Source: Xenophilus azovorans DSM 13620 (GTDB lineage Bacteria > Pseudomonadota > Gammaproteobacteria > Burkholderiales > Burkholderiaceae_C). Taken from it: a stretch of 64,000 nt of DNA. The notes beneath the pieces were generated by a model. That model had not been told where the DNA came from, did not search any database, and saw only the letters and a list, made by a program, of their open reading frames with translations. The position numbers and the translations under genes were made by a program. Shown here one piece after another: positions 40,217 through 56,768 of this stretch. The stretch's first letter is position 1, and every line of letters starts with the position of its first letter. The DNA lies in the NCBI RefSeq assembly GCF_000745855.1, contig NZ_JQKD01000005.1, positions 1-64,000 on the forward strand, read 5' to 3'.

Positions 40217-41095
40217 CTACACCGCGCTGCGGTGGCGCTCGATGCAGGTCGCGAGCGTCTCCTCGCCGCTGCGCTGCCACCAGTCCTGCGCGGAGAAGAT
40301 TTCGACCTCGCTGAAGCCGGCGAAGCCGGCGTCTTCCACCCAGCCGCGGATCTTCTTCAGTTCGATCACGCCGTCGCCCATCATGCCCCGGTCGTTGAGC
40401 AGGTCGCGCGTGGGCGCGAGCCAGTCGCAGACGTGGTAGGCGAGCAGGCGCTCCCGGCCGGCGCGTTCGGTCTGCTGGCGAAGCTTCGGGTCCCACCACA
40501 CGTGGTAGACGTCCAGCGCCACGCCCAGCATGCCGCTGCGGGCCGGGTCCAGCTCGTCGCACAGGTCGAGCGCATGCTCCAGCGTGTTGATGCAGGCGCG
40601 GTCGGCCGCCTGCATGGGGTGCAGCGGCTCGATGGCCAGCGGCATGCCGACCTCGCGCGCGTACGCCAGCGAGGCGGCGATGCCGTCGCGCACCTCGCCG
40701 CGCGCGCGGGCGATGTCCTTGTAGGCCGGCCTGCCTTCCAGCGCGCCGGGCAGGGCGCCGACCACCAGCACCAGGCAGGGGGCGTCGAGCGTCTTCGCCT
40801 CGTCGATGGCGCGGCGGTTGTCGTCCAGCGCGGCTTTCAGGCCGGCCGCGTCGGCGGCCGGGAAGAAGCCGCCGCGGCAGTAGCCGGAGAGCGCCATGCC
40901 GTGCGCCTTCAACTGCCGCGCCACGGCGTCGAGGCCGGCCGCCGCCACCTGGTCGCGCCAGGGGCTGATGGCGCGCACGCCCTGCGCCGCGCACTGGTCG
41001 ATGATCTTCGCGAGCGGCACTTCCGCGCCGTGCTGCCGGCGCAGCGTGGCGGTGTTGACGGAGAGCCAGCCGTGGTCGGCGGAGAAGTCGCGCAT
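40217..41095 (-). CDS. TIM-barrel sugar-phosphate isomerase/epimerase-type enzyme
   Basis: The 292-residue protein belongs to the xylose-isomerase-like TIM barrels (IolE/IolI/Hyi superfamily). Metal-ligand candidates are the glutamate in LAIEPLHPM, the aspartate in GVALDVYHVWW, the histidine in LLAYHVCDW and the glutamate in GFSEVEIFS. The reaction is unknown; family members isomerise or dehydrate polyols and keto sugars. It is last of tctC-gfo-DUF993-isomerase. A mosaic repeat (41099-41178) lies directly before its ATG, leaving no clear ribosome-binding site. Confidence 0.88.
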   Translation of the reverse strand: MRDFSADHGWLSVNTATLRRQHGAEVPLAKIIDQCAAQGVRAISPWRDQVAAAGLDAVARQLKAHGMALSGYCRGGFFPAADAAGLKAALDDNRRAIDEAKTLDAPCLVLVVGALPGALEGRPAYKDIARARGEVRDGIAASLAYAREVGMPLAIEPLHPMQAADRACINTLEHALDLCDELDPARSGMLGVALDVYHVWWDPKLRQQTERAGRERLLAYHVCDWLAPTRDLLNDRGMMGDGVIELKKIRGWVEDAGFAGFSEVEIFSAQDWWQRSGEETLATCIERHRSAV

Positions 41096-41181: not shown

Positions 41182-42366
41182 TCATTCCACGCCGTAGGTG
41201 GCCAGCAGCGTCTTCATGCGCTGCACCGCGAGTTCGGGCCGCTCCAGCAGGTCGGCCGCGTCGGCCAGGCGGAACAGCTCGGCCAGGTGCTGCAGCGAGC
41301 GCGTGCTCTGCTGGCCGCCCACCATCGTGAAGTGCGACTGGTGCCCGTTGAGCCAGGCCATGAAGACCACGCCCGTCTTGTAGAAGCGCGTGGGCGCCTG
41401 GAAGATGTGGCGCGACAGCGGCACGGTGGGGCCGAGGATGGCGTGGAAGCGCTCCACGTTGCCGGCCGCCAGCTCGCCCAGCGCCGCGCTGGCCGCCGGC
41501 GCGATGGCGTCGAAGATGCCCAGCAGCGCGTCGCTCCTGCCGTGCGTCGGCTCGCTGCCGAAGCCGTCGCCGGCGATCAGCTCGGCGTAGTTGAAGTCGT
41601 CGCCGGTGTACATGCGCACGCCCGGCGGCAGGCGCCGGCGCATGGCGATCTCCTTGTCCTTGTCGAGCAGCGAGATCTTGATGCCGTCCACCTTGGCGGC
41701 ATGCGCGGCGATGATGCCCAGCGCCGTGTCCATCGCGGCGTCCAGGTCCTGCGTGCCCCAGTAGCCGGCCAGCGCCGGGTCGAACATGTCGCCCAGCCAG
41801 TGCAGCACCACCGGCTGCTTCGCCTGGCTCAGCACGCGGCCGTAGACGCGCTCGTAGTCGGCCGGGCCGGTCGCCACGCGCGCCAGGGCGCGGCTGGCCA
41901 TCACGATGAGCTTGCCGCCCAGCGCCTCGATGGCCTCCATCTGCTCCTCGTAGCCGCGGATCACGTCGTCGACGCTCTTCACGGCGTCGATGTCGAGGTG
42001 GTCGGTGCCGCAGCCGCTGGCGACAAAGGCGCCGGGCACGTCCTTCGCGGCGTCGAGCGAGCGGCGGATCAGCTCCAGCGAGGTCTTCCAGTCCAGGCCC
42101 ATGCCGCGCTGCGCGGTGTCCATCGCCTCGGCCACGCCCAGGCCCAGCGACCACAGGTGGCGGCGGTAGGCGATGGTGGCGTCCCAGTCCACCGCGGCCG
42201 TGAGCCAGGGGTCGACGGCGGCCAGCGGGTCGGCCACGACGTGCGCGGCCGAGTAGGCGATGCGGTCGAACTTCACGCCCGCGGGCGGCTTCACCGGCAC
42301 GCTGCCGCGCAGCGTGTAGGTCTCGATCGCGCGGGCGGCCGTGGGCAGTCGCAGGGTCAGTGCCAT
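41182..42366 (-). CDS. DUF993 protein (dihydrodipicolinate-synthase-like)
   Basis: The 394-residue protein belongs to the DUF993 family, annotated as dihydrodipicolinate-synthase-like; VDGIKISLLDKDKE would supply the barrel lysine expected of a class I aldolase. Other landmarks are DPWLTAAVDWDATIAYRRHLWSLGLGVAEAMDTAQRGMG and TGDDFNYAELIAGDG. The substrate is unknown. It lies 16 bases after the Gfo/Idh/MocA gene, and both probably act on the same intermediate. MALTLRLP at 42366 is taken as start. Confidence 0.85.
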   Translation of the reverse strand: MALTLRLPTAARAIETYTLRGSVPVKPPAGVKFDRIAYSAAHVVADPLAAVDPWLTAAVDWDATIAYRRHLWSLGLGVAEAMDTAQRGMGLDWKTSLELIRRSLDAAKDVPGAFVASGCGTDHLDIDAVKSVDDVIRGYEEQMEAIEALGGKLIVMASRALARVATGPADYERVYGRVLSQAKQPVVLHWLGDMFDPALAGYWGTQDLDAAMDTALGIIAAHAAKVDGIKISLLDKDKEIAMRRRLPPGVRMYTGDDFNYAELIAGDGFGSEPTHGRSDALLGIFDAIAPAASAALGELAAGNVERFHAILGPTVPLSRHIFQAPTRFYKTGVVFMAWLNGHQSHFTMVGGQQSTRSLQHLAELFRLADAADLLERPELAVQRMKTLLATYGVE

Positions 42367-42382
42367 GGCGTGCTCCGCGGCG

Positions 42383-43558
42383 TCAGACGGCCAGCGCCGG
42401 CACGTCGATCCAGCGCCGCTCGCCCCAGCTCTGCAGCGCGGCCTCGACCAGCTGCACGCCCTTGGCACCCTCGGGCAGCGTCCACTTGTAGGGGGCGTCC
42501 TCCACCACGTGGCGGATGAAGTGCTCCCACTGGATCTTGAAGCCGTTGTCGTAGACCTGCGAGTCCGGAATCTCCTGCCACTGGTCGAAGAAGTTCATCG
42601 TCTGCTTGATGTCCGGGTTCCACACCGGCCGCGGCGTCGCCACGCGCGACTGGGCGCGGCACTCCTGCAGCCCGGCCACGGCCGAACCGTCGGTGCCGTC
42701 GACGTGGAAGGTCACCAGGTCGTCGCGCCGCACGCGCGTGACCCAGCTCATGTTGATCTGCGCGATCACCGGCTCGCCGTTGTGGCCGGTCAGTTCGCAG
42801 GTGGCGTAGGCGGCGTCGTCGGCGGTGGCCTCGTAGGGCTGGTCGTTCTCGTCCCAGCGCTTCGGGATGTGGGTGGCGCCCAGGCAGCTCACCGACTTCA
42901 CCTCGCCGAACAGGTTGTCCAGCACGTAGCGCCAGTGGCACATCATGTCCAGGATCATCCCGCCGCCGTCTTCCTTGCGGTAGTTCCAGCTCGGGCGCTG
43001 GATGGGTTGCAGGTCGCCCTCGAACACCCAGTAGCCGAACTCCAGGCGCACGCTGAGCATGCGGCCGAAGAAGCCGGCGCGGCGCAGCATGTCGAGCTTG
43101 CGCAGGCCGGGCAGGAAGAGCTTGTCCTGCACGGCGCCGTGCTTCAGCCCTCTGGTCCTGCCGGCCTCCTCGGCCAGCCGGGCGATCTCCACCGCCTCGT
43201 TCAGGTTGGTGGCGATGGGCTTCTCGCAGTAGACGTGCTTGCCGGCGCGGATCGCCTTGGCCAGCAGGGTGGGGCGCATCTGCGTGGTGCCGGCGTCGAA
43301 GAAGACGGTGTCGTCGGGGTTGGCCAGGGCCGCGTCCAGATCGGTGCCCCAGCGCGCGATGCCGTGCGCCTTGGCCAGCGCCTCGATCTTCTCGGCGTTG
43401 CGGCCGATCAGGATCGGGTCGGGCATCACCTTGTCTCCGTTCGAGAGCGTCACGCCGCCCTGGGCGCGGATCGCCACGATGGAGCGGATCAGGTGCTGGT
43501 TCATGCCCATGCGTCCGGTGACGCCGTGCATGATCAGGCCGAGTCGTTGGGTTGCCAT
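42383..43558 (-). CDS. Gfo/Idh/MocA-family oxidoreductase
   Basis: The 391-residue NAD(P)-dependent dehydrogenase has an N-terminal Rossmann domain (RLGLIMHGVTGRMGMNQHL) and the family motif GKHVYCEKPIATNLNEA with the EKP lysine. The C-terminal domain has the GGGMILDMMCHWRYVLDNLFG segment that usually carries the catalytic Asp/His. Relatives oxidise inositols, sugars or glycosides. It follows the TctC receptor in the operon, so it may act first on the imported compound. Confidence 0.92.
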   Translation of the reverse strand: MATQRLGLIMHGVTGRMGMNQHLIRSIVAIRAQGGVTLSNGDKVMPDPILIGRNAEKIEALAKAHGIARWGTDLDAALANPDDTVFFDAGTTQMRPTLLAKAIRAGKHVYCEKPIATNLNEAVEIARLAEEAGRTRGLKHGAVQDKLFLPGLRKLDMLRRAGFFGRMLSVRLEFGYWVFEGDLQPIQRPSWNYRKEDGGGMILDMMCHWRYVLDNLFGEVKSVSCLGATHIPKRWDENDQPYEATADDAAYATCELTGHNGEPVIAQINMSWVTRVRRDDLVTFHVDGTDGSAVAGLQECRAQSRVATPRPVWNPDIKQTMNFFDQWQEIPDSQVYDNGFKIQWEHFIRHVVEDAPYKWTLPEGAKGVQLVEAALQSWGERRWIDVPALAV

Positions 43559-43597: not shown

Positions 43598-44566
43598 TCA
43601 TTGCGCGGGCGAGAGGCCGGCCGCCTTCACCAGCGCGGCGTTGCTCTTGATCTCGCCCTTGATGTAGGCGTCGAACTGCTCCGGCTTGAGCGTCCAGGCG
43701 TCGGCGCCCAGCTTCAGGAAGCGCTCCTTGACCTCCGGCGTCGCCAGGGCCTTGACCACCTCGTCGTGCAGGCGGTCGACGATGGCGCGCGGCGTCTTGG
43801 CCGGGGCCATCATGCCGATCCAGAAGTTGAACTCCGAGCCGGGCACGCCGGCTTCGGCCGTGGTCGGCACGTCGGGCAGGGCGGCGGCGCGCCGGGGCGA
43901 GCCCACAGCCAGCGCGAGCAGCTGGCCCTCGCGGATCTGGCCGATCACCGGCGCGATGGGCGAGAAGTAGTAGTCCACCCGGCCCGCGAGCACCTCGCTC
44001 ACGGCTTCGCCGGAGCCCTTGAACGGGATGTTGGTCGCGGCTATCTTCGCGGCCATCTTGAACTTCTCGGCGTTCAGGTGCGTGGCGCTGCCCTGGCCGG
44101 CGGAGGCGAAGTTCATCTTGCCCGGCTCGGCCTTCGCCTTCGCCACCAGTTCCTGCACCGACTTGACGCCCTTGGCCGGCGAGATGACCAGCACGTTGGG
44201 CGTGGTGCTGATGGGCGTGACGGGCGCGAAGTCGGCCAGCGTGTCGAAGGGCAGCTTGGCGAAAGTGGACGGACTCACCGTGTGCGAGGACGAGTGAATC
44301 ATGATCGTGTAGCCGTCGGGCGCGGCCGAGGCCACCACCTGCTGGCCGATGGTGCCGCTGGCGCCGCCGCGGTTGTCCACCACCAGCGTCTGGCCCATGC
44401 TCTGGCCCATCTTGTCGGCGATGGCGCGCGCAATGATGTCGGTGGTGCTGCCGGCCGCGAAAGGCACGACGACGCGGATGGGCTTGTTGGGGTAGCCGTC
44501 CTGCGCCTGGGCAGGGGCGGCGAGGGCGAGCGCGGCCAGTGCGGGAAGGAAGATGGCGAGTTTCAC
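43598..44566 (-). CDS. Bug/TctC-family substrate-binding protein heading the oxidoreductase operon
   Basis: The 322-residue protein starts with GTG (44566), preceded by CCGGAGAC. It has a signal peptide (FLPALAALALAAPAQA) and TctC motifs PIRVVVPFAAGSTTDIIARA, LVVDNRGGASGTIG and LPDVPTTAEAGVPG. It could supply a second ligand range to the TctAB pump encoded 3 kb upstream. Its promoter has two copies of the cluster operator, one covering the transcription start. Confidence 0.92.
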   Translation of the reverse strand: MKLAIFLPALAALALAAPAQAQDGYPNKPIRVVVPFAAGSTTDIIARAIADKMGQSMGQTLVVDNRGGASGTIGQQVVASAAPDGYTIMIHSSSHTVSPSTFAKLPFDTLADFAPVTPISTTPNVLVISPAKGVKSVQELVAKAKAEPGKMNFASAGQGSATHLNAEKFKMAAKIAATNIPFKGSGEAVSEVLAGRVDYYFSPIAPVIGQIREGQLLALAVGSPRRAAALPDVPTTAEAGVPGSEFNFWIGMMAPAKTPRAIVDRLHDEVVKALATPEVKERFLKLGADAWTLKPEQFDAYIKGEIKSNAALVKAAGLSPAQ

Positions 44567-44589
44567 GGTTGTCTCCGGGTGCCTGGGTT

Positions 44590-44609
44590 AATTAACTATT
44601 TGGTGAATT
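44590..44609. promoter_or_regulatory. Operator copy 1, AATTAAC-TATTTG-GTGAATT
   Basis: This 20-bp near-perfect palindrome lies just downstream of a good promoter (TTGAAG 44641-44646, 18-base spacer, TAGAAT 44617-44622, minus strand). It would cover about +1 to +20 of the tctC-gfo-DUF993-isomerase transcript, a classical repressor position. Confidence 0.8.
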
Positions 44610-44616
44610 GAGGGTG

Positions 44617-44646
44617 ATTCTAGGGGTGATGCATGGGTGGCTTCAA
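44617..44646 (-). promoter_or_regulatory. Promoter of the tctC-gfo-DUF993-isomerase operon
   Basis: The -35 TTGAAG and -10 TAGAAT (minus strand) are 18 bases apart. Transcription would start near 44610, at the edge of operator copy 1. Confidence 0.7.
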
Positions 44647-44762
44647 GCCTCTCCATGGTGAGGCGTCTGATGGTTTCCCCCAATAAATGAAGGGGTCGGC
44701 GCGAAGTTGGCGTGCCGTGAGGCTCGTGAGGCAGCCGGGGTGCGCTGGATCGGTTGCCCGGA

Positions 44763-44782
44763 AATTAACTATTTGGTGACTT
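44763..44782. promoter_or_regulatory. Operator copy 2, AATTAAC-TATTTG-GTGACTT
   Basis: It shares the first 17 bases with copy 1 and lies 173 bases upstream of it. It overlaps the stop codon of the enolase-superfamily gene. Two sites on one promoter region suggest looping or cooperative repression. Confidence 0.75.
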
Positions 44783-46211
44783 ATTGCGGCACAGCCATCA
44801 GCTGCAGCGTGTCCCACAGCGGATGGGCGGCCGAGGCGAAGCCGGCGGCGGCATGGAGGCTGCGCAGGCTGATCTGTCCGCCCTGGATGTGCAGGCGCGG
44901 CCGGCCGGGCGGCTGGTACAGGTCGGCATGGGCGGCGGCGAAGGCTTGCGCCTCCGCTGGCGGCGCCGTGCCGAAGCCGTCGACGTAGTGGTGGCCGTTG
45001 CGCTCCACGTGCGCGAGCCCGAGCAGGCTGACCAGCGCCAGGTCCTGCTGCACGGCCAGGCCGGCCTGCGTGGTCAGGTCTTCCGCCGACATGAAGTAGA
45101 CGGCCTCGCGGCCCTCGCGCAGGGCCTGCTCGTTGAGCTGCCGGCAGCGCGCCGCGTTGAGCACCGAGCGGTAGATGCCCTTGCACGCCTTGCTGGAGAC
45201 GCCCGTGTAGCCGCAGGCCAGTGCGCGCGGAAAAGCGTCCAGCGTGGCGTCGGACTCGTCGATCAGCACCGGCCGCATCGCGGCCAGCGGGCGCACGTCG
45301 CTGTCCAGCGCGATGGCGCGAGGCAGCGGCTGCTCGATGTAGAGCGTGGCCTGCGCGAGCCGGCGCAGGGCGGGCGTGCGCTCCACCTGCTGCCAGAAGG
45401 CAGCGGCCGACGCGGCGTCGGCGAACTGCTCGTTGCCGTCCAGCGTGACCTGGTAGTCGGGCAGGCTGTCGTCCAGCACCTGCGCGATGCGCGTGAGGCG
45501 CGCGATGTCGGCCTCGGCATCGCCGGCGACCTTGAGCTTGAAGTGGCGGCAGCCGGTGGCCGCCACCACGTCCTCCAGGCTCTCGGGCAGGCCGTCGTCC
45601 AGCCGCTGCGCGATGTCGGCGCCGGTGATCGGGTCCAGCATGCCGACCGTGTGCCGCAGCGCGATGGCGGGCGACGGCGCGAGGCTCGCCAGGAAGGCGT
45701 CGATGTCGAAGCCGGCGAGGTCGCCCGTCAGGCGCGCGTCGATGCCCGGCAGGTTGCGCTGCATCGCCTCGTGGAAGGGCAGGCCCTGCGCGCGGCACAG
45801 CGCGTCCAGCAGGGCCTTGTCGATCAGGGCGGGGCCGAAGCAGGCGATCAGCGGGTTCAGGCCCTGCCGCGCGGCGGCGTCGATCTGCGGCTGGTAGTGC
45901 GTCGCGAAATGGCCGAAGGCATCGCGTTCGGCCGCCGCGCCCAGGTAGGCGTCGCGCGCCAGGCGCAGCGAGGCGCGCAACTGCTCGAAGTTGTCCTCGT
46001 TGCTCAGGGCCAGGTTCTTGTCGAACCACTTGGGGGCCAGCAGTTCGGCGGCGGCGCCCTCGGCCTCGCGTCCGTCGGCGGTGGCGATGCGCACCCGCGC
46101 GAAGGCCTGCGGGCAGGCCGTCAGCGTGACGACGCCGAAGCGGAAGGGCAGGCGCATGCGCACGCCGCGTTCGTAGAGCTGGATGTCGGTGATGCGGAAG
46201 GGAACGGACAT
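44781..46211 (-). CDS. Enolase-superfamily enzyme (mandelate racemase/muconate lactonizing type)
   Basis: The 476-residue protein is longer than the usual 350-400 residues. It has the barrel motifs of the superfamily: FKLKVAGD (general-base Lys), TLDGNEQF (metal Asp), YIEQPLPR (metal Glu), LIDESD (third ligand) and a second lysine in VSSKACKG. Members abstract a proton alpha to a carboxylate for racemisation, cycloisomerisation or acid-sugar dehydration. It closes the tctCBA-isomerase-enolase operon. ATG 46211 (MSVPFRITDI) fits the family start. Confidence 0.9.
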   Translation of the reverse strand: MSVPFRITDIQLYERGVRMRLPFRFGVVTLTACPQAFARVRIATADGREAEGAAAELLAPKWFDKNLALSNEDNFEQLRASLRLARDAYLGAAAERDAFGHFATHYQPQIDAAARQGLNPLIACFGPALIDKALLDALCRAQGLPFHEAMQRNLPGIDARLTGDLAGFDIDAFLASLAPSPAIALRHTVGMLDPITGADIAQRLDDGLPESLEDVVAATGCRHFKLKVAGDAEADIARLTRIAQVLDDSLPDYQVTLDGNEQFADAASAAAFWQQVERTPALRRLAQATLYIEQPLPRAIALDSDVRPLAAMRPVLIDESDATLDAFPRALACGYTGVSSKACKGIYRSVLNAARCRQLNEQALREGREAVYFMSAEDLTTQAGLAVQQDLALVSLLGLAHVERNGHHYVDGFGTAPPAEAQAFAAAHADLYQPPGRPRLHIQGGQISLRSLHAAAGFASAAHPLWDTLQLMAVPQ

Positions 46212-46230
46212 GGCGGCGAGAGGGATGGCT

Positions 46231-47064
46231 TCAGCAGTCGAGCGCCTCGCGCAGCCCGCGCAGGTAGCCCGCGGCGAAGGCCGCCGCGCCCGGCCCGTCG
46301 GGCACGTAGTCGAAGGGCTCGACGCCGATGGCGCCCGCATAGGCATGGCGCTTGAGCGCGGCGAGGATCGGCGCGAAGCGCATCTCGCCCTGGCCGGGCG
46401 CGCGGCGGTTGGGGTCGTTGACCTGCACGTGGCCGATCAGGCCGGTGGGCAGCCAGCGGTCGATCAGCTCGGGCACCGGCGCCGATTCGGCCAGGCCCGC
46501 GGCGCTGCAGTCGAGCATGGTGCGCAGGGCGGGTTCGTTCATCGCGCGCACCAGGCCGGCCGCCTCCTCGATGGTGTTGACCACCTCTGTCTCGTGCCGC
46601 GACAGCGGCTCGATGCAGTAGACCAGCCCGTGCGCCGCGGCCGCGCGGGCGGCGCGCGCCAGCCCTTCCTGCAGCCGGCCCAGGGCGGTGGCCTTGTCTT
46701 CGCCGGGCGCGACGGCGCGCTGCCTGGGCGAACCGTGCACCAGCACGGCGCCGCCGAGTTCGGCGCACAGCCCCACCAGGCGCTCCATCACCTGCAGCGT
46801 GCGCTCGCGCAGCGCGGCGTCGGGATCGGTCAGCGACAGGCCCTCGGGCCGCACCAGCAGCCAGTGCAGCCCGGTGACCACCAGGCCGAAGGACTCGACC
46901 GTGGCCCGGATGCGCGCCGCCTGCGCCGTGGTGATGCGCTCGGGCGCGTCGTCCAGCGTGAAGGGCGCGATCTCCAGGCCGTCATAGCCCAGGGCCGCCG
47001 CGTACTCGCACTGGCGCTCCAGCGGCAGCGCCGCCAGCACCTCGTTGCACAGGCCGATCCTCAT
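46231..47064 (-). CDS. TIM-barrel sugar-phosphate isomerase/epimerase-type enzyme (second copy type)
   Basis: The 277-residue protein has the xylose-isomerase-like barrel with probable metal ligands at YCIEPLSRHETEVV, RTMLDCSAAG, GHVQVND and GAIGVEPFDY. It is closest in style to hydroxypyruvate isomerase/IolI-like enzymes and only distantly like the barrel at 40.2 kb. Its ATG shares one base with the tctA stop (TGATG), so it is coupled to the transporter. Confidence 0.88.
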   Translation of the reverse strand: MRIGLCNEVLAALPLERQCEYAAALGYDGLEIAPFTLDDAPERITTAQAARIRATVESFGLVVTGLHWLLVRPEGLSLTDPDAALRERTLQVMERLVGLCAELGGAVLVHGSPRQRAVAPGEDKATALGRLQEGLARAARAAAAHGLVYCIEPLSRHETEVVNTIEEAAGLVRAMNEPALRTMLDCSAAGLAESAPVPELIDRWLPTGLIGHVQVNDPNRRAPGQGEMRFAPILAALKRHAYAGAIGVEPFDYVPDGPGAAAFAAGYLRGLREALDC

Positions 47065-48605
47065 CAGGTGCCCGCCTTGCGGCCGAACAACGCGGCGATG
47101 CGCCCGCCGATGGCGCCGGTGAAGGACTTCACCGCGGCCTTGAACGAGGGCAGGTACATCAGCAGCGTGAAGACGGTCACCGCAGCGAACACGATGCAGA
47201 TGGGGCGCGTGAAGAAGGGCGCGATGCTGCCGTCGGACAGCACCAGCCCGCGGCGCAGGCTCTTGTCGAGCAGGTGGCCCAGCACCAGGCCCAGCACCAG
47301 CGGCGCCATCTCGTAGCCGCGGCGGCGCAGGAAGAAGGCGCCGATGCCGATCGCCAGCATCACGTACACGTCGAACAGGCGCGAGGCGGTGGCGAAGGCG
47401 CCCACCGTACACAGCACGAAGACGATCGGCATGAGGATGCCGCGGCGCACCTTCAGCACGTGCAGCAGCGGCCGCACGCCGAACAGGCCGAACAGCAGGA
47501 TGGTGATGGAGGCCAGCGTGGTCATGGCGACCACGTGGTAGATGAAGTGCGGGTTCTGGATCATCAGCATCGGCCCGGGCTGCACGCCGTGGATGATCAT
47601 GGCCGCCATCAGCACCGCCGAGGGCGCCGAGCCGGGGATGCCCAGGGCCAGCGAGGGAATGATGTGGCCGGGAATGGAGGACATGTCGCCCGTCTCGGCC
47701 GCCATCAGCCCGTCGATGGAGCCCTTGCCGAACTGCTCCTTCTCCTTGCTCACGGCCTTGGCCGCGGCATAGGACATCCAGGCGCCGGCGTCCTCGCCCA
47801 CGCCGGGCAGCAGGCCCGTCGCCACGCCGATGATGCCCGAGCGCAGCACCGTCCAGCGGTACTGGATCACCTCGCGCCAGCGCGGCAGCACCGAGTCCTT
47901 CATGTCGATGATCTTGCGCTCGATCGGGTCGGCCAGCGTGGTCAGCACCTCCGCCAGGCCGAAGGCGCCGACCAGCGCCGGGATCAGGCCGATGCCGCCG
48001 GCCAGTTCGTCCCAGCCGAAGGTGAAGCGGTCGTAGGCGTAGAGGCTTTCCTGGCCGACCTGTGCCAGCAGCAGGCCGAGCAGGCCCATGAGCCAGCCCT
48101 TGATCGGGTCGTCGCCCACGATGCTGCCCGACATGGTCACGCCGAACAGGGCGAGCCAGAAGAACTCGAAGGCGCCGAACTTGAGCGCCACTTCGGCCAG
48201 CAGCGGCGTGAACAGCGCCAGGCAGACCACGCCGATCAGCGTGCTGACGAAGGCCCCGCTGGTGGCGATGCCGATGGCGCGCCCGGCCTGGCCCTGCAGC
48301 GCCAGCGCGTGGCCGTCGGCGCAGGAGGCGGCGTTGGCGGCCGTGCCGGGGATGTTCAGCAGGATGGCCGTGCGCGAGCCGCCGTACAGCGCGCCCACGT
48401 AGGAGCAGATCAGCACCAGGATGGCGTCGTTGGGGCTGAGCTTGATGGTCAGCGTGGTCAGCAGCGCGATGGCCAGCGTGGCCGACAGCCCCGGCAGGAT
48501 GCCCATCACGATGCCCACGAAGGCGCCGCCCAGCCCGTAGAGCAGCGTCATCGGGTTGAGAAAGCTCAGATAGGCTTGGCCGAGGTCGGTGAGGCCCTGC
48601 AACAT
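47064..48605 (-). CDS. tctA: Tripartite tricarboxylate transporter large membrane subunit TctA
   Basis: The 513-residue protein has about twelve helices and the TctA signature GGAFVGIVMGILPGLSATLAIALL, with a second inverted half containing GVATGLLPGVGEDAGAWMSYAAAK. It is the main sodium- or proton-coupled channel for carboxylates. It follows tctB and is coupled to the TIM-barrel gene. Confidence 0.95.
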   Translation of the reverse strand: MLQGLTDLGQAYLSFLNPMTLLYGLGGAFVGIVMGILPGLSATLAIALLTTLTIKLSPNDAILVLICSYVGALYGGSRTAILLNIPGTAANAASCADGHALALQGQAGRAIGIATSGAFVSTLIGVVCLALFTPLLAEVALKFGAFEFFWLALFGVTMSGSIVGDDPIKGWLMGLLGLLLAQVGQESLYAYDRFTFGWDELAGGIGLIPALVGAFGLAEVLTTLADPIERKIIDMKDSVLPRWREVIQYRWTVLRSGIIGVATGLLPGVGEDAGAWMSYAAAKAVSKEKEQFGKGSIDGLMAAETGDMSSIPGHIIPSLALGIPGSAPSAVLMAAMIIHGVQPGPMLMIQNPHFIYHVVAMTTLASITILLFGLFGVRPLLHVLKVRRGILMPIVFVLCTVGAFATASRLFDVYVMLAIGIGAFFLRRRGYEMAPLVLGLVLGHLLDKSLRRGLVLSDGSIAPFFTRPICIVFAAVTVFTLLMYLPSFKAAVKSFTGAIGGRIAALFGRKAGT

Positions 48606-48663
48606 GAGTCAGCTCTGAAAGAAAGGAAGGAGATTGCCGCCCGACGGCGGGCGGCGAGTGGCG

Positions 48664-49215
48664 TCAGGGGAGACGCACGAGGAAGACCTGCTCGAAGACC
48701 AGCGAGATGACGAGGGACACGCCGACGCCGATGGCCAGGGCCTTGGCCCACGCGCGCAACCCCAGCCGCCGCTCGGCCTCGTCCAGGCTCAGCCGCTGGA
48801 ACAGCAGGATGGACGCGGTGACGTAGATGGCCGAGGCGAGCCAGAACGGCAGGCCGTGCCCCACCAGCACCACCGAGTAGCCCGTACACAGGACGATCGT
48901 CAGGCCGACGCGGCGGCGCTGCTGCGCCCGCATCGGATCGGCGGCATGCGCCTTCGGCCGGAGGGCGCCGCGGCGCCAGCTGCGCACGGCCATGGCGGCG
49001 CCCAGCAGGATCAGCGCGATCCCCAGCAGGCCCGGCAGCAGGCCGGGCACCGTGTAGGGGTTGATGTCCTGGCTTTCCAGCCGATCCATCGTGATGGAGG
49101 CGATCAGCGTGGCCACGCCGAGCGCGGTCCAGCCGATCGCGTCCTTGAAGTCGGCGCGCGGCGAGGCGGCTTCCTCGCCGTGCGCTTGCGTGCCAGCCTC
49201 GTCGGAGGAACTCAT
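48664..49215 (-). CDS. tctB: Tripartite tricarboxylate transporter small membrane subunit TctB
   Basis: The 183-residue protein has four hydrophobic segments and the TctB landmarks INPYTVPGLLPGLLGIALILLG. It partners TctA. The methionine at 49215 is taken, although 49218 is equally possible. It is 10 bases after tctC in the operon. Confidence 0.92.
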   Translation of the reverse strand: MSSSDEAGTQAHGEEAASPRADFKDAIGWTALGVATLIASITMDRLESQDINPYTVPGLLPGLLGIALILLGAAMAVRSWRRGALRPKAHAADPMRAQQRRRVGLTIVLCTGYSVVLVGHGLPFWLASAIYVTASILLFQRLSLDEAERRLGLRAWAKALAIGVGVSLVISLVFEQVFLVRLP

Positions 49216-49225
49216 CACCGGCGCG

Positions 49226-50242
49226 TCAGGGCTTGGGGATGCCGACCGTGTCCGGCGAGACCTTCGCCTTGCCGGCCGCGAACAGGTTCCAGGCGTTGGC
49301 CTGCACCGCGGGTGCCACGGCCTTCTGTGCGGCGTCGCCGGAGAGCGGATCGAACAGCGCGCCGCGGCTCAGGGCGTACTTCTTCAGCGCCTCGCTCTTG
49401 GGGATGCTCTCGGTCCAGATCTTCTGCACCGTCTGCACCACCTCGTCCGGCACGCCCTTGGGGATGAAGATGCCGAAGTAGTTGGGCGGCGCGGTGAAGC
49501 CGGGCACGCTGTTCGACAGCGGCGGGATGGTGCCGTAGCCGTCGATCTCCAGCGGCTTGCTGCTCACCGTGGCCAGGGCGCGCAGGCGCTTGCCGCGCAG
49601 CATGTCGGCCTGCTCCACCGCCAGCTGGGTCGTCACCTCCGTCTCGCCCGCCACCGTGGCCACCACGGCGGGGTTGCCGCCGTCATAGGCCACCTCGCGG
49701 TACTTCACGCCGGTGGCCTTGGTGATGAAGTCCATCGCGTTGTGGCCGGCCGAGGTGACGCCGGCGGTCGCCACCGAAATCTGTCCCGGCTTGGCCTTCA
49801 TGGCGTCGATCAGGTCCTTGGCCGTCTTGTAGGGCGTGGAAGGGTTGACGCCGATCACCTGGATGTTCGCCACCGAGAGGAACAGGTGCCAGTCGCTCAT
49901 GCGCGTCTTGAGCGAGCCCAGCGTCTCGTAGGCGCCCAGATCCTGCGCGGCGCCTGCCGTCCAGGTGTAGCCGTCCTTGGGCGCGTCCAGCGCGCTCTTG
50001 GTGCCGATGGCGCCCGATGCGCCGGGCTGGTTGACGATCACGATCGTCTGGCCCAGCGCCTTCTCCAGCTCGACGGCGGCGACGCGCGTGACCTGGTCGG
50101 TGGAGCCTCCGGCGGCCCACGGCACGATCAGGTTGATGGGGCGCGAAGGCTTCCACTGCGCGAACGCGCAGGAGGCTGCCAGCGACAGGGCGGTGAACAG
50201 GGCGGTCCGGCGGGCCAGGCCTGCGAGCGAAGACACGGTCAT
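49226..50242 (-). CDS. tctC: Tripartite tricarboxylate transporter receptor TctC (first gene of the transporter operon)
   Basis: The 338-residue periplasmic receptor has a signal (LFTALSLAASCAFAQ) and motifs PINLIVPWAAGGSTDQVTRV and IVIVNQPGASGAIG. It captures the cluster's carboxylate ligand for TctAB. A promoter with TTGACC-18-CACAAT and one copy of the cluster palindrome lie directly upstream. Confidence 0.94.
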   Translation of the reverse strand: MTVSSLAGLARRTALFTALSLAASCAFAQWKPSRPINLIVPWAAGGSTDQVTRVAAVELEKALGQTIVIVNQPGASGAIGTKSALDAPKDGYTWTAGAAQDLGAYETLGSLKTRMSDWHLFLSVANIQVIGVNPSTPYKTAKDLIDAMKAKPGQISVATAGVTSAGHNAMDFITKATGVKYREVAYDGGNPAVVATVAGETEVTTQLAVEQADMLRGKRLRALATVSSKPLEIDGYGTIPPLSNSVPGFTAPPNYFGIFIPKGVPDEVVQTVQKIWTESIPKSEALKKYALSRGALFDPLSGDAAQKAVAPAVQANAWNLFAAGKAKVSPDTVGIPKP

Positions 50243-50262
50243 GTGGAAATCCCTCGTGTTGC

Positions 50263-50282
50263 AATTAACTAACGAGTGAATT
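50263..50282. promoter_or_regulatory. Operator copy 3, AATTAAC-TAACGA-GTGAATT
   Basis: The arms match copy 1; only the 6-base centre differs. It overlaps the downstream side of the predicted -10 of the tctCBA operon, 21-40 bases before the tctC ATG. Confidence 0.8.
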
Positions 50283-50309
50283 GTGGTGTCTTCGGGAAAG
50301 AAAGGTCAA
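50280..50309 (-). promoter_or_regulatory. Promoter of the tctC-tctB-tctA-isomerase-enolase operon
   Basis: The -35 TTGACC (50304-50309) and -10 CACAAT (50280-50285) on the minus strand are 18 bases apart. The operator palindrome begins inside the -10. Confidence 0.55.
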
Positions 50310-50322
50310 CGCGTCGGCGGCC

Positions 50323-50970
50323 TCAATCTTTCAGGACATACCCTAGGATGACGTCGCACATGTGCGAGAGCCGTTCGGCGCGCGCCTTGTGCGACATCAG
50401 GTCGCGCCCGAAGATCGCCGACAGCGTGTGGTTGTTGGACAGGTAGAAGTAGGCGATGCCGGCGATCGAGATGTAGAGCTGCACCGGGTCGATGCCGCCG
50501 CGGAACACACCCTCTCGGCGGCCGTGCTCGAGGATGTCGCCCAGCGTCTGGACCAGCGGCGAGTTCATCTCCTGCACGCGCTGCGATTTCTCCAGGTGCC
50601 GCGCCAGGTGCAGGTTGGCGCTGTTCAGCAGCGTGATGAACTCGGGGTGCGCCAGGTAGTACTCCCACGTGAACTCGGTGAGCCGGCGCACCGCAGCGGC
50701 CGGCTCCATCTCCAGCAGGCGCAGTTGCTTCTCGGCGTTGCGGATGTCGGCGTAGGCCTGTTCCAGCACCGCCAGGAACAGGTCGTCCTTGCTGCCGAAG
50801 TAGTAGTAGATGAGGCGCTTGTTGATCTCGGCGCGCTCGGCGATGCGGTCGACGCGCGCGCCCGCCAGCCCGAAGGACGCGAACTCCTCGCGCGCGGCCA
50901 GCAGGATGGCGGCCTGCGAGCGCTCGGCGTCGCGCAGACGGGGTTCGGTGGCGATGGGAGGGGCGCTCAT
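50323..50970 (-). CDS. TetR-family repressor of the TctCBA/enolase/ThDP cluster
   Basis: The 215-residue protein has an N-terminal HTH (about 25-70: FASFGLAGARVDRIAERAEINKRLIYYYFGSKDDLF) and a TetR_C-type sensor domain of the RutR/NicS-like group (YYLAHPEFITLLNSANL). Its own promoter contains the cluster palindrome, and the same palindrome precedes both tct operons and the divergent ThDP gene; this is strong contextual evidence that it binds there. The inducer is probably the cluster substrate or an early intermediate. Confidence 0.92.
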   Translation of the reverse strand: MSAPPIATEPRLRDAERSQAAILLAAREEFASFGLAGARVDRIAERAEINKRLIYYYFGSKDDLFLAVLEQAYADIRNAEKQLRLLEMEPAAAVRRLTEFTWEYYLAHPEFITLLNSANLHLARHLEKSQRVQEMNSPLVQTLGDILEHGRREGVFRGGIDPVQLYISIAGIAYFYLSNNHTLSAIFGRDLMSHKARAERLSHMCDVILGYVLKD

Positions 50971-50977
50971 GCTGTTT

Positions 50978-50997
50978 TATTCACTGTACGGTTAATT
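50978..50997. promoter_or_regulatory. Operator copy 4 (reverse orientation), between tetR and the ThDP gene
   Basis: Read on the minus strand it is AATTAAC-CGTACA-GTGAATA, one arm base off the consensus. It covers the tetR -10 (TACAGT, 50983-50988) and lies 60-79 bases before the divergent ThDP gene, so one bound repressor could control both. Confidence 0.8.
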
Positions 50998-51011
50998 GAG
51001 AGGCATCGCAA
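50983..51011 (-). promoter_or_regulatory. tetR promoter
   Basis: TTGCGA (51006-51011) and TACAGT (50983-50988) on the minus strand, 17 bases apart, with the -10 inside operator copy 4. The ThDP gene has a GATAAT at 51023-51028 as a possible -10 on the plus strand without a clear -35. Confidence 0.5.
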
Positions 51012-51056
51012 TCGTGGCTGCCGATAATCGCCCAACTGCCAGACGTCCTCCCGATC

Positions 51057-52748
51057 ATGACCCCTCAGCTTGCCGGCCACCTTCTCGTCGAATGCCTCGT
51101 CGCCCAGGGCGTCAGCCACGTGTTCGGCGTGCCGGGCGAGAGCTACCTCGCGGCGCTGGACGGGTTCCACGACCACGCCGACCGCATCCGCTTCGTCATC
51201 TGCCGGCAGGAGGGCGGGGCCGCCTTCATGGCCGAGGCGCACGGCAAGCTCACCGGCCGGCCGGGCGTGTGCTTCGTCACGCGCGGCCCCGGCGCGACCA
51301 ACGCCTCGATCGGCGTGCACACCGCCTTCCAGGACTCGACGCCGATGGTGCTGCTGGTCGGCGACGTCGGCAGCGACTTCCGCGACCGCGAGGCCTTCCA
51401 GGAGGTGGACTACGCCAGCTTCTTCGGCCCCAGCACCAAGGGCTTCGCCAAGCGCGTGGAGCGGGTGGACGAGGCGGCGCGGCTGCCCGAGTACGTGGCG
51501 CGCGCCTTCGCCACCGCCATGAACGGCCGTCCCGGCCCGGTGGTGCTGGTCTTGCCGGAGGACATGCTGCGCACCCCCGTGCAGGCCGCCCCGCTGCCGC
51601 GGGTGGCGCCGACCCCGGCCTGGGCAGACCCGGCCGGCCTGCATGAGTTGCGCGGGATGCTGCTGGCCGCGCAGCGCCCGCTGGTGATCGCCGGCGGCGG
51701 CGGCTGGACGCCGCAGTCCGCGCAGGCGCTGCAGCGCTTCGCGGAGCAATGGCAACTGCCGGTGGCCAATGCCTTCCGCTTCCAGGACACCTTCGACAAC
51801 CACCACCCGCTGTACGCGGGCGACGTCGGCATCGCCATCAGCCCGAAGCTGGCGGCGCGCGTGCGCGAGGCCGACCTGGTGATCGCCGTCGGCCCGCGCC
51901 TGGGCGAGATGACCACCGGCGGCTACACACTGCTGGAGGCGCCGCGGCCGAAGCAGAAGCTGGTGCACTTCCACGCCGACGCGGAAGAACTCAACCGCGT
52001 CTACCAGGCCGACCTGGCGTTCAACACGACCATGAACGCCGCCGCCTGCGCGCTCGAGACGCTGGCGCCGCCGCCCGAGCTGCCCTGGCGCGCCTGGGCC
52101 GAGGCCGCGCATGCCGACTACGAGGCCAACCTGGTGCCGCAGCCGCTGCCCGGCCCCATCGACATGCCGGCCATCGTGCGCAGCCTGCAGGCGCACCTGC
52201 CCGCCGACGCCGTGCTGACCAACGGCGCCGGCAACTTCGCGAGCTGGATCCATCGCTTCTTCCGCCACCACGGCCTGGCCAAGGGCTTCAAGACGCAGCT
52301 CGCGCCCACCAGCGGCGCGATGGGCTACGGCGTGCCGGCCGGCGTCGCGGCCAGCATCGCGACCGGCCGCGTGGCCTTCACCATCGCCGGCGACGGCGAT
52401 TTCCTGATGAACGGGCAGGAACTGGCCACCGCCGTCCAGCACGGCGGCAGGAGCATCGTCGTGCTGCTGAACAACGGCATGTACGGCACCATCCGCATGC
52501 ACCAGGAGCGCGAGTACCCCGAGCGCGTGAGCGGCACAGCGCTCGCCAACCCGGATTTCTGCGCGCTGGCGCGCGCCTACGGTTATGCCGCCGAGCGGGT
52601 GACCGAGACGGCGCAATTCGAGCCGGCGCTGCTGCGCGCGCTGGCATGCGAGACGGGCACGCTGATCGAGATTCCGCTGGACCCGGAGGTCATCACCACG
52701 CGCGGCACGCTCAGCGCCATCACGCGGGCGGCGCAGGGCAAGGCCTGA
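51057..52748 (+). CDS. Thiamine-diphosphate enzyme (acetolactate synthase-like)
   Basis: The 563-residue protein has the three-domain POX/ALS plan: ThDP_N with the catalytic glutamate in VICRQEGGAAFMAEAHGK, a central domain from about 190, and ThDP_C with GDGDFLMNGQELATAVQHGG...LNNG. Members cleave or form C-C bonds next to a carbonyl; IolD, the inositol-pathway trihydroxycyclohexanedione hydrolase, is from this superfamily. It lacks a regulatory small subunit gene, so it is unlikely to be the biosynthetic acetolactate synthase. It is divergent from tetR with a shared operator. Confidence 0.9.
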   Translation: MTPQLAGHLLVECLVAQGVSHVFGVPGESYLAALDGFHDHADRIRFVICRQEGGAAFMAEAHGKLTGRPGVCFVTRGPGATNASIGVHTAFQDSTPMVLLVGDVGSDFRDREAFQEVDYASFFGPSTKGFAKRVERVDEAARLPEYVARAFATAMNGRPGPVVLVLPEDMLRTPVQAAPLPRVAPTPAWADPAGLHELRGMLLAAQRPLVIAGGGGWTPQSAQALQRFAEQWQLPVANAFRFQDTFDNHHPLYAGDVGIAISPKLAARVREADLVIAVGPRLGEMTTGGYTLLEAPRPKQKLVHFHADAEELNRVYQADLAFNTTMNAAACALETLAPPPELPWRAWAEAAHADYEANLVPQPLPGPIDMPAIVRSLQAHLPADAVLTNGAGNFASWIHRFFRHHGLAKGFKTQLAPTSGAMGYGVPAGVAASIATGRVAFTIAGDGDFLMNGQELATAVQHGGRSIVVLLNNGMYGTIRMHQEREYPERVSGTALANPDFCALARAYGYAAERVTETAQFEPALLRALACETGTLIEIPLDPEVITTRGTLSAITRAAQGKA

Positions 52749-52770: not shown

Positions 52771-53403
52771 TCAGGTGCCGAGCCTGTCCTCGGCGTCGAA
52801 GGTCATGCGGATATCGGCGTACCTGCCGATGATCTCCTCGCCGAAGCGCGCCTTGAAGTCCTCTCCGATGGCGCGGGAGAACGACACCGTGTCCTGCATC
52901 CGATCCGGGCCTTGGATGATGACCAGCAGCCGGGCGGGCTTGCCGCTGGTGTTCCTGAAGGTGCGCATCACCTTCGGGGGCACGGCGAACAGGTCGTTCG
53001 GCCGCGCGGCAACCACGCTTTCGTTGTCGAAGCCGGTGCAGATGTCGAAGCCGCCGTCCAGGACATAGAAGGACTCCTGCGTGTCGGAGTGCGCGTGGGG
53101 CGGTGGGCCGTCGTCGCCGGCCGTGCATTCGGCGATCGAGATGTACAGCCCCTGGTGGCCATGCATCGGCGCGGTGCGCGAGCGTCCGGCATGGCCCTCC
53201 GGCACGATCAGCGGGAAGACCGAGCCGGCCGACAGCCGCATCGTCGCCTCGGGCGGCAGGCCGCCGGTGCGGTCGAGGTCCTTCTTGTAGGGCACCAGGG
53301 TCGCGAAGCGGGTGGTCCGGCCGGCCAGCGCCGCAGGATCGGCGGGCTCGCCCTCGAAGCTGTCGAAGCCCACGGCCAGTTCGTCGCGGGCCTGTTCACC
53401 CAC
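52771..53403 (-). CDS. Cupin-domain protein (paralogue of the 56.8-kb gene)
   Basis: The 210-residue single cupin has the two motifs PPPHAHSDTQESFYVLDGGFDI and PNDLFAVPPKVMRTFRNTSGKPARLLVI. Motif 1 has two His and a Glu, so it can bind a metal. The C-terminal DFKARFGEEIIGRYADIRMTFDAEDR region aligns with the end of the cupin at 56.8 kb. Candidates are dioxygenase or isomerase activities, unproven. It converges on the ThDP gene. Confidence 0.8.
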   Translation of the reverse strand: MGEQARDELAVGFDSFEGEPADPAALAGRTTRFATLVPYKKDLDRTGGLPPEATMRLSAGSVFPLIVPEGHAGRSRTAPMHGHQGLYISIAECTAGDDGPPPHAHSDTQESFYVLDGGFDICTGFDNESVVAARPNDLFAVPPKVMRTFRNTSGKPARLLVIIQGPDRMQDTVSFSRAIGEDFKARFGEEIIGRYADIRMTFDAEDRLGT

Positions 53404-53460
53404 GGATGTCGCCGCCGCCGCGTCGAAGACGGCGCCACAGTGGCCTTGCGCAGGAATGCT

Positions 53461-53910
53461 CTAGACCACGACCAGGCGGGCAAGGGAATCGCCGGCGTTC
53501 CTCACGCGGTGCCGCATACCCTCGGGCACCGACAGCATGTCCTTCGCCTCCAGCACGATGCTGTCTGCCAGCGCCGGCCCGAACGACACCTCCACGCGCC
53601 CCTCGACGCAGACGAGGTTCTCGATGGCGCAGGGATTGCGATACGGCTGCGTGCAGGCGCCGGCCGCCAGTTCCAGGGCGCCCGTGCACGCCGTGGGCGG
53701 GCACGAGAGGGCCGCACCGGCGAACCGGCCAGCGGTGTCGCCGCTGGCCATCATGGGCGTCAGAACGCCACCCCACAGCGCCTGCACTTCGGTTGCGAAC
53801 CTTTTTGCAGGGGCCGTGCTGCTGGCGCCGTAGCCGGGGAACGGGGCCATGTGCCGGCGCATCGCTTCTGCGCTCAGCGCACCGGGGCGTGCGGCGTGGG
53901 ACGGGGTCAT
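53461..53910 (-). CDS. Cupin-domain protein (distinct from the other two)
   Basis: The 149-residue protein has a cupin core (CAIENLVCVEGRVEVSFGPALADSIVLEAKDMLSVPEGMRHRVRNAGDSLARLVVV). The first motif lacks the usual HxH pair, so metal binding is doubtful; it may be a ligand-binding cupin. The ATG at 53910 follows TGGAG; an ATG at 53967 is possible. It is 57 bases upstream of the 52.8-kb cupin and divergent from lysR. Confidence 0.7.
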   Translation of the reverse strand: MTPSHAARPGALSAEAMRRHMAPFPGYGASSTAPAKRFATEVQALWGGVLTPMMASGDTAGRFAGAALSCPPTACTGALELAAGACTQPYRNPCAIENLVCVEGRVEVSFGPALADSIVLEAKDMLSVPEGMRHRVRNAGDSLARLVVV

Positions 53911-54090
53911 CGACGGTCTCCAGTGATCGAAGACGTCATTGGACGCAGAGGCATCGCCGAAAGCCATGCAGGCGCTTCAATGCGTCATTCACACGCGTCA
54001 ATGGCCGCGAGGCGATGCGGCCGCGGCGATCGGGCATCCTTCGGCGTGCCCGCAGGGGAGAATCCACAGAGCACAAGGAAGGAGCCGTTC

Positions 54091-55059
54091 ATGCCCCCCG
54101 GGACACGGCAGGAGACACATTCCACAGCCCTGACGCGACTGACCTTCCAGCACCTGCAGTACCTGCAGGCGCTGGTCGAGGAGCGCCACGTCACCCGCGC
54201 GGCCGAGCGCATGGGCATTGGCCAGCCGGCCATGTCCACCGCCCTGGCGCGCCTGCGCGAGGTGTTCAGGGACGTGCTGCTGGTGAAGACCACCACCGGC
54301 ATGGAGCCCACCCCCCGCGCGCTGGACCTGGTGCGGCGCGTGCGCGAGATCGCGGACATGCTGGAGGGCCGGGGTTTCGAGGCCGGGCACTTCGATCCCG
54401 CCACTTCCCAGGCGCGCTGGCGCGTCATGTCCTCGGACGGCATCTCGCGCACGCTCCTGCCCGAGATGATGGCGGTGGCTGCGCGCGGCGCCCCGAACAT
54501 GCGCTTCACCGTCCACCCTGGCGATCCGCGGCGGCTGTCCGAGTACCTGCGCGACGGCGACTTCGACCTGGCCCTGACCTTCGTGCGCTCGCCGCCCTCC
54601 GAACTGCGCCAGACCGTGCTCTATCCGCAGCGTCTCCTGTGCATCGCGCGTGCTGGGCACCCGGCGGTGGACGGGCAGATCGGCCTGGACGCATTCGTGG
54701 CCTGCCAGCACGCCCGCTGGGGCGCGCCGCCCGTGGCCCATGCCACCATGGAGGCGATGGTCGACGAGGCGCTGGACGCGCAGGGACACGCCCGGCGCGT
54801 CAGCCTGTTGGTGTCCAACCTGACGCTGCTGCCGGACGTCGTCGCCGGCTCCGACCTGCTCGCCGTCGTGCCCGAGCACATGGCCCGGGCGGCGGCGCGG
54901 GCACTGCCGATCCAGCTCCTGGCGCTGCCCTTCAAGGTGCCGAGCGTGGACGTGAGCATGGTCTGGCACGAGCGTCTGCACCACGACCCCGCGCACAGGT
55001 GGCTGCGCGAATCCCTGCGGGACATCGGTCGGAAGCTCTCGAAGCGGCCGACGCTGTGA
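54091..55059 (+). CDS. LysR-family transcriptional regulator
   Basis: The 322-residue regulator has an N-terminal winged HTH (LTFQHLQYLQALVEERHVTRAAERMGIGQPAMSTALARLREVFRDVLLVKT) and a periplasmic-binding-like effector domain. It has AAGGAAGGAG before the ATG. It is divergent from the cupin pair with 180 bases between, in which CGTCA(T/A)T(G/C) recurs three times (53934, 53983, 53996). Confidence 0.92.
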   Translation: MPPGTRQETHSTALTRLTFQHLQYLQALVEERHVTRAAERMGIGQPAMSTALARLREVFRDVLLVKTTTGMEPTPRALDLVRRVREIADMLEGRGFEAGHFDPATSQARWRVMSSDGISRTLLPEMMAVAARGAPNMRFTVHPGDPRRLSEYLRDGDFDLALTFVRSPPSELRQTVLYPQRLLCIARAGHPAVDGQIGLDAFVACQHARWGAPPVAHATMEAMVDEALDAQGHARRVSLLVSNLTLLPDVVAGSDLLAVVPEHMARAAARALPIQLLALPFKVPSVDVSMVWHERLHHDPAHRWLRESLRDIGRKLSKRPTL

Positions 55060-55083: not shown

Positions 55084-55806
55084 TCAGCGCTCCAGAAGGC
55101 GACCGGCCACGAAGGCGATGGCATCCGACAGCCGCTCGCCCTCCAGCTCGCGGTGCGGCCCGGGATAGGCGACGAGGCGCTTGTCGGCCGACCCGATCGT
55201 GTCGAACAGGGCCAGCGTGCCGTCGCGGTCGAAGAACTCGTCGTCCCACTGCTGCGTGAACCACACGTCGCACCGCATCCTGCGGGCCGCTTCCGCCAGG
55301 TGCTCGCTGGCGGCGTAGGTCGTGCTCCACAGGCCGATGGCCGCGGCGCGAATGCGCGGCTCGGCCGCCAGCATCGGGATGCCGTACGCGGTGCCCATCG
55401 ACACGCCGACATAGCCGATCGGCAGATCCGCGCAGCCGGGCACGCGCTGGATGGCGTCCAGCGCGGCCTGCATGTCCTCGCCCATGCCAGTGCGTGCCAC
55501 ACCTGCGCGCCATGCCTCGCGAAAGGCCGCGCGCGCGGTGCTGGGCGCGAGGTCGCCGTCGCCGCGGCGCTCGCCATGGACCGGGCCGTCGACGGCCAGG
55601 ACGGCCAGCCCCAGCGGCAGGCAGGCCCGGGCGATCATGAGGACAGCGTTCGAGGTCTTGTGTCCGCTGCCCCCGTGGCATGCCAGGACGAGCCCCCTGG
55701 CGCCGTCCGCCGGCTGCCAGTGGACCGCGGGGATCCTGTGGCTGCCGCGCTCGACGGCCAGGGGTGCGGGTGGAGGGAGCGGGCGCGTCGCGTCCTGTCG
55801 TGTCAT
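55084..55806 (-). CDS. Alpha/beta hydrolase, dienelactone-hydrolase-like
   Basis: The 240-residue protein has the nucleophile elbow GVSMGTAYG with Ser as nucleophile, an oxyanion strand LVLACHGGSGHKTSN, and a late acid/His region (QQWDDEFFDRDGTLALFD; YPGPHRELEG). The size and order fit dienelactone hydrolase or small esterases. It is last in the cupin-bug-hydrolase run and may hydrolyse a lactone or 1,3-dicarbonyl product. Confidence 0.83.
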   Translation of the reverse strand: MTRQDATRPLPPPAPLAVERGSHRIPAVHWQPADGARGLVLACHGGSGHKTSNAVLMIARACLPLGLAVLAVDGPVHGERRGDGDLAPSTARAAFREAWRAGVARTGMGEDMQAALDAIQRVPGCADLPIGYVGVSMGTAYGIPMLAAEPRIRAAAIGLWSTTYAASEHLAEAARRMRCDVWFTQQWDDEFFDRDGTLALFDTIGSADKRLVAYPGPHRELEGERLSDAIAFVAGRLLER

Positions 55807-56767: not shown

Positions 56768-56768
56768 C

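Follow-up and report, generated by a model that had tools for sequence, protein, structure and literature searches.

We analyzed a 64,000-nucleotide stretch of the Xenophilus azovorans DSM 13620 genome (contig NZ_JQKD01000005.1, positions 1 to 64,000; hereafter the window) that carries a TetR-family regulator gene (tetR), a divergent gene for a thiamine diphosphate (ThDP)-dependent enzyme, and two gene sets encoding components of a tripartite tricarboxylate transporter (TTT) together with sugar-type catabolic enzymes (Table 1). A reading of this DNA made from the sequence alone had proposed that four copies of one palindrome, AATTAAC-N6-GTGAATT, define a regulon of the TetR protein. Gene calls with Pfam and NCBIfam agreed with the gene set of that reading: tetR, the ThDP gene, tctC2-tctB-tctA-iso2-enolase and tctC1-gfo-DUF993-iso1. 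The tetR product matched PF00440 (E 4.4e-15) and TetR_C_29 (E 2.2e-46), both above cut-off, which assigns it to the helix-turn-helix regulators of the TetR family.

The tetR locus and its four palindromes

All four copies were present where the sequence-only reading had placed them, except that two of the four, and not one, carry a mismatch. Searching the window with up to three mismatches returned eight matches, which are the four sites read on both strands, compared with a mean of 0.21 matches and a maximum of 2 in 100 dinucleotide-preserving shuffles of it. All four palindromes are real and far beyond chance. A weight matrix built from 57 sites at ortholog loci of relatives gave a symmetric 20-bp consensus, AATTCACY-N4-RGTGAATT, and scored O1 at 37.4, O2 at 30.2, O3 at 30.7, and O4 at 30.8 bits; nowhere else in the window did the score exceed 0.5 bits. 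A symmetric site of this length would be compatible with binding of a TetR dimer. O2 shares 2 bases with the stop codon of the enolase-superfamily gene and lies 173 bp upstream of O1; O4 lies 7 bp upstream of the tetR start. We also considered the operators as strong cruciforms and rejected this, with single-strand folds of -1 (O1), -4.1 (O3), and 0 kcal/mol (O4), of which only that of O3 was clearly below shuffles.

Table 1. Operators, predicted promoters, and genes of the tetR cluster, in window coordinates
Feature	Position	Strand	Remarks
Operator O1, AATTAACTATTTGGTGAATT	44590..44609		just downstream of predicted tctC1 -10 box; 0 mismatches to AATTAAC-N6-GTGAATT
Operator O2, AATTAACTATTTGGTGACTT	44763..44782		1 mismatch to AATTAAC-N6-GTGAATT (ends GTGACTT)
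Operator O3, AATTAACTAACGAGTGAATT	50263..50282		overlaps last 3 bases of predicted tctC2 -10 box; 0 mismatches
Operator O4, AATTAACCGTACAGTGAATA on - strand	50978..50997		1 arm mismatch; in tetR/ThDP divergent region
Predicted sigma-70-like promoter of tctC1, TTGAAG-18-TAGAAT	44617..44646	-	promoter scan; same class in relatives
Predicted sigma-70-like promoter of tctC2, TTGACC-18-CACAAT	50280..50309	-	promoter scan; same class in relatives
tetR, regulator, 215 aa	50323..50970	-	TetR_N + TetR_C_29
ThDP-dependent enzyme, acetolactate-synthase-like (PRK08199)	51057..52748	+	divergent from tetR
tctC2, TTT transporter binding protein	49226..50242	-	
tctB	48664..49218	-	
tctA	47064..48605	-	
iso2, xylose-isomerase-like TIM barrel	46231..47064	-	start set by eye at the ATG that overlaps the tctA stop
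Enolase-superfamily protein (MR_MLE_C)	44781..46211	-	start read by eye
tctC1, TTT binding protein	43598..44566	-	
gfo, Gfo/Idh/MocA oxidoreductase	42383..43558	-	closest solved chain 3oqb
DUF993 protein	41182..42468	-	closest solved chain 4dnh; true start probably inside open reading frame
iso1, xylose-isomerase-like TIM barrel	40217..41095	-	closest solved chain SMc04130, 3ju2

Beyond the window, we searched the whole genome (6,535,173 bases in 132 contigs) with the original pattern and allowed mismatches, the matrix scan having covered the window. At up to two mismatches, there were six distinct places, the four operators and two others. One of these, C86:9855, has 1 mismatch, scores 15.3 bits, and by eye does not precede a metabolic gene; the other, C13:87626, has 2 mismatches and scores 6.5 bits. 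At up to one mismatch, the four operators were joined by a single weak fifth place (C86:9855), so a spread of the motif over many unrelated promoters, which would have spoken against a TetR regulon, was not seen in this pattern search, and we rejected a wide genome regulon.

Two further features flank the cluster. A third TctC gene (window 55811-56845) stands near a LysR-type regulator (domains in the open reading frame at 52912-55059) and a hydrolase-like open reading frame (55084-55806), and the matrix scan of the window found no strong palindrome copy near it. Directly beyond the ThDP gene, on the opposite strand, is a cupin-domain gene (52771-53403).

The names of the closest solved chains are generic: oxidoreductase for gfo (3oqb), uncharacterised protein for DUF993 (4dnh), and sugar or xylose isomerase for iso1 (3ju2, 3qc0, 7vpf); the enolase query found no solved chain at 1e-8. 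Levoglucosan-type catabolism reportedly also uses Gfo and TIM-barrel enzymes. We rejected this assignment, as gfo scored 45.8 bits against a levoglucosan dehydrogenase cut-off of 650. Because the names of the closest chains give no specific function and the transporter types vary among relatives, we name no substrate.

Retention of the palindrome with tetR and its change among paralogs

By hand tally, 61 of 299 sampled family genomes have a TetR ortholog at 59-100% identity, and 78 of 299 have a match at E 1e-50; in a class-wide sample, TetR at E 1e-60 occurred in 1 of 274 genomes, the window's own. At the nearest ortholog loci, 29 of 29 carried two sites with up to three mismatches in about 3.6 kb. 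We then counted sites of at least 12 bits in the neighborhoods of tetR, taking 600-900 bases from the tetR end as the tetR-upstream position and anything within 6 kb as the operon side. Both positions were occupied in 48 of 60 family neighborhoods and in 80 of 80 named loci, two sets that overlap each other and the matrix training set and come partly from the same genomes. The tetR-upstream site alone was present in 56 of the 60 and all 80 of the 80, and the operon-side site in 50 of the 60. When we restricted the count to 31 neighborhoods from genomes outside the matrix training, 19 had both sites and all 31 had at least one site in the stretch. At the same threshold, a mirror-image matrix gave 0.08 sites per 20 kb and shuffled sequence 0.02. 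Relatives that keep the cluster and tetR have therefore retained the motif, whose absence there would have contradicted the proposed regulon.

Sites outside the two expected positions were few (7 in the 60 neighborhoods and 6 in the 80 loci), and four of the seven are pairs in L085 and L090, the L085 pair standing in front of a moved tctC1 operon. Whole-genome counts, in which a match need not sit at the cluster, point the same way: AATTMAC-N6-GTKAATT with up to one mismatch matched 56 of 61 genomes with an ortholog versus 62 of 238 without one, while the mirrored pattern matched 12 of 61 and 48 of 238, respectively (all tallied by hand). Since 62 of 238 compares with 48 of 238 for the mirror, genomes without an ortholog are near background. 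Three related genomes (loci L082, L087, and L088) show another layout, with no site of at least 12 bits on the operon side of the stretch and with two or three operator-like sites ahead of tetR, of which the first two are separated by about 100 bp.

The palindrome also changes with the recognition helix of the protein. Orthologs mostly carry NKR in this helix, and a few NKK, DKR, or DKK; two distant orthologs with ANKRMLYYYF (L091 and L092) have the palindrome GTTAACTGGGTGGTTAAC. We also fetched 14 loci whose TetR matches are more distant (47-52% identity). Their top score with the window's matrix was 12.2 bits, and a different palindrome, TCAACC-N4-GGTTGA, was present in 11 of the 14, exactly the eleven with NKQ in the recognition helix. 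This change in paralogs ties the motif to the TetR protein, and in most cases the palindrome appears to follow the protein.

One such paralog lies in the same genome (G000:C75:8579-9178, 51% identity), with the palindrome TTTCAACCAAACGGTTGACA beside the gene (locus L177:2721-2740) and, by eye, aldehyde-dehydrogenase-like, epimerase-like, and dihydrodipicolinate-synthase-like neighbors. The window's regulator and this paralog share the fold family, a palindrome beside tetR, a CC-N4-GG center, and adjacent genes that by eye are of a catabolic type. They differ in that the paralog combines TCAACC-N4-GGTTGA with Q at residue 52, whereas the window combines TTCACY-N4-RGTGAA with R. We predict that the paralog controls a second regulon.

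Operators at predicted promoters and transporter cassettes

A promoter scan found one promoter-like pair per scanned region, against a shuffle mean of 0.1 each. O1 starts 13 bases after the start of the tctC1 -10 box and O3 starts 3 bases after the start of the tctC2 -10 box, so that O3 overlaps its predicted -10 box and O1 lies just past its own. We extended the scan to relatives, counting identical segments once and leaving out L073, whose orientation test failed; all promoters in these counts are predictions. Among 111 distinct operon-side segments, including the window's O3, 79 had a promoter-like pair, and in 78 of these 79 the operator begins 3 to 13 bases after the start of the -10 box. 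The corresponding counts were 4, 3, and 4 of 111 with shuffled flanks and 1 of 111 on the opposite strand. This overlap of sites with predicted promoters in relatives fits repression. In the tetR direction, 26 of 121 upstream segments had a promoter-like pair (3 and 1 in shuffles), 25 of them with the -10 box starting inside the operator. Autoregulation is best placed at O4, given its distance from the tetR start.

For the tetR/ThDP divergent region, the proposed site is there, just upstream of tetR, and the ThDP promoter was not found: the scan in the ThDP direction gave pairs in 4 of 121 loci, compared with 2 and 3 in shuffles, and we therefore could not locate it. The proposal of three transcription units also needs an adjustment, as counting tetR separately gives four candidate units. 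Some cotranscription among these units may occur, since a scan of 44400-44950 and 50150-51200 turned up no terminator-like site in either region.

Relatives differ in what lies between tetR and the enzyme core; gap genes were listed for 7 loci and, for all of these except L048, scanned in part against Pfam. The gap holds tctC1 alone, or tctCBA-iso2-enolase, or ABC transporters. The last are of the NMT1 type in L058, L060, L069, and L078, and in L038 (G205) and L041 (G243) a MalK/SBP_bac_8-type sugar ABC transporter with an additional Gfo/Idh/MocA gene replaces the TTT system. Promoter geometry follows the first gene, in counts that ignore shared descent. The -10 box starts 3 bases before the operator in all 19 promoters detected before tctC2 (7 loci had none detected), 10 to 13 bases before it in 46 of 50 before tctC1 (20 had none), 3 bases before it in 5 of 5 before gfo (2 had none), and 3 bases before it in 4 of 5 before other genes (3 had none). 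The window's tctC1 and tctC2 promoters obey this first-gene rule. Geometry thus tracks the transporter cassette, which suggests that each cassette comes with a promoter-operator of its own and that two such cassettes are combined in the window.

The window, L102, L103, and L164 share an arrangement in which the tctC1 operon comes after the enolase gene. All four have a second operator 117-186 bp before O1, which by eye coincides with the enolase stop codon or lies no more than 5 bases from it. L150 has the same gene order and no operators between, and L163, L176, and L059 have both gene sets in another order and no second internal site; O2 is therefore not obligatory. A scar, a roadblock, and extra repression are candidate roles for O2. 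One tentative idea, which we think more likely wrong than right, is a plug-in system in which one TetR and a fixed enzyme core would accept interchangeable or stacked cassettes with operators as the joints. Each cassette (a lone tctC, tctCBA-iso2-enolase, an NMT1-type ABC transporter, or a MalK-type sugar ABC transporter) would bring its promoter-operator, and O2 would be a stacking scar or a read-through roadblock.

Proposed regulation and its alternatives

We conclude that the TetR protein encoded at 50323-50970 is very probably a local, autoregulated repressor of TTT transport and sugar-type catabolism, acting through AATTCACY-N4-RGTGAATT. The rarity of the motif in the genome, its retention with tetR, its overlap with predicted promoters, and its change with the recognition helix were all computed here and support the TetR regulon first proposed; we infer binding, repression, induction, and a joint response of all units. 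A TetR dimer would bind the 20-bp palindrome. Bound at O1 and O3, the dimer would cover or adjoin the -10 box and transcription start of tctC1-gfo-DUF993-iso1 and tctCBA-iso2-enolase and so exclude RNA polymerase; bound at O4, it would occupy DNA immediately before the tetR start codon, where it may act on the divergent ThDP gene as well. It would be released by a ligand, probably either the compound that is imported or an intermediate of the pathway.

Several observations weigh against this conclusion. Twelve of the 60 family neighborhoods lack one or both expected positions; two of these are at contig ends (L095 and L096), and the rest are mostly more distant orthologs or rearranged clusters. 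No promoter was detected at 32 of the 111 operon-side sites, and control of the ThDP gene, in whose direction the scan stayed near background, is the weakest part of the model. The link between helix and palindrome is a correlation that was noticed after the fact, among loci many of which are related. L187, L188, and L189 (NVRM, NKRM, and NKRM) have neither palindrome, and since two of them, L188 and L189, carry NKRM, the site cannot be predicted from an R at residue 52 alone.

We were also concerned that the palindrome could be the site of another regulator, such as a global factor or the nearby LysR protein, with tetR merely one of its targets. Any repressor could use a motif at predicted promoters, and the LysR gene is about 3 kb away. 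However, a LysR query (tblastn, E 1e-10) matched the window's own stretch and none of the other loci among the 60 and 80, the genome held no wider set of motifs at up to one mismatch, and the palindrome changes with the TetR helix in paralogs; we regard this explanation as highly improbable. We give equally little credence to TetR binding but activating, or acting both ways, at one or more promoters. O2 is located ahead of the tctC1 promoter and not on a detected promoter, and the ThDP promoter has no located position relative to O4, both of which would suit an activator, but an operator on or abutting the -10 box is the typical position of a repressor, and this is where O1, O3, and the operon-side sites with a detected promoter (78 of 79) are found.

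An added mechanism that is compatible with repression by TetR is a loop between O2 and O1, or their cooperation at a fixed helical phase. Second operators ahead of O1 do recur (window, L102, L103, and L164, with a pair in L109), but the spacings of 173, 171, 186, 117, and 145 bp correspond to about 16.5, 16.3, 17.7, 11.1, and 13.8 turns at 10.5 bp per turn and share no common phase. We rejected looping at a fixed phase on these spacings, and consider the mechanism as a whole unlikely.

TetR/TetO and RutR are autoregulated TetR-family repressors with local catabolic or efflux targets. The window's regulator resembles them in its TetR_N domain and in having a palindromic site both immediately before the regulator gene and at promoters predicted for the neighboring genes, and differs from them in the site; the RutR consensus, TTGACCANNTGGTCAA, is not the window's palindrome, and we rejected RutR identity at 62.5 bits against an NCBIfam cut-off of 368. 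Comparative genomics has been used to reconstruct TetR regulons of FabR, FadP, LiuQ, PsrA, and RutR in Proteobacteria, FadP among them in Comamonadaceae (PMC5343134). As far as the part of that paper considered here goes, the method and the kind of result are the same as ours, whereas those regulons control fatty-acid, branched-chain amino-acid, or pyrimidine genes and no TTT/Gfo/DUF993 cluster was found there. A full-text literature search yielded no description that we recognized as this regulon and no mention of DUF993.

The enzyme genes recall a set in Sinorhizobium meliloti, in which SMc04130 (3ju2) is close to iso1, and the DUF993 chain 4dnh is one that we take to be SMc04132. PMC12542648 describes SMc04132 as uncharacterised and lists SMc04133 as a putative oxidoreductase. 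That set is not known to include the TetR; our class-wide sample (1 of 274) drew on the window's class, and rhizobia were not searched.

The sequence comparisons thus give good support to local control of an uncharacterised catabolic cluster by a TetR repressor that probably also regulates itself, which would be an ordinary kind of gene control. This assigns a predicted regulon and a defined operator to an uncharacterised TetR group present in 61 of 299 sampled family genomes. The ortholog palindrome and its paralog counterpart together offer a usable case of a recognition-helix change that goes with a changed DNA site. DUF993, Gfo/Idh/MocA, and TIM-barrel enzymes of obscure function would be tied to one signal, and knowing the inducer would give a lead on the pathway's substrate.

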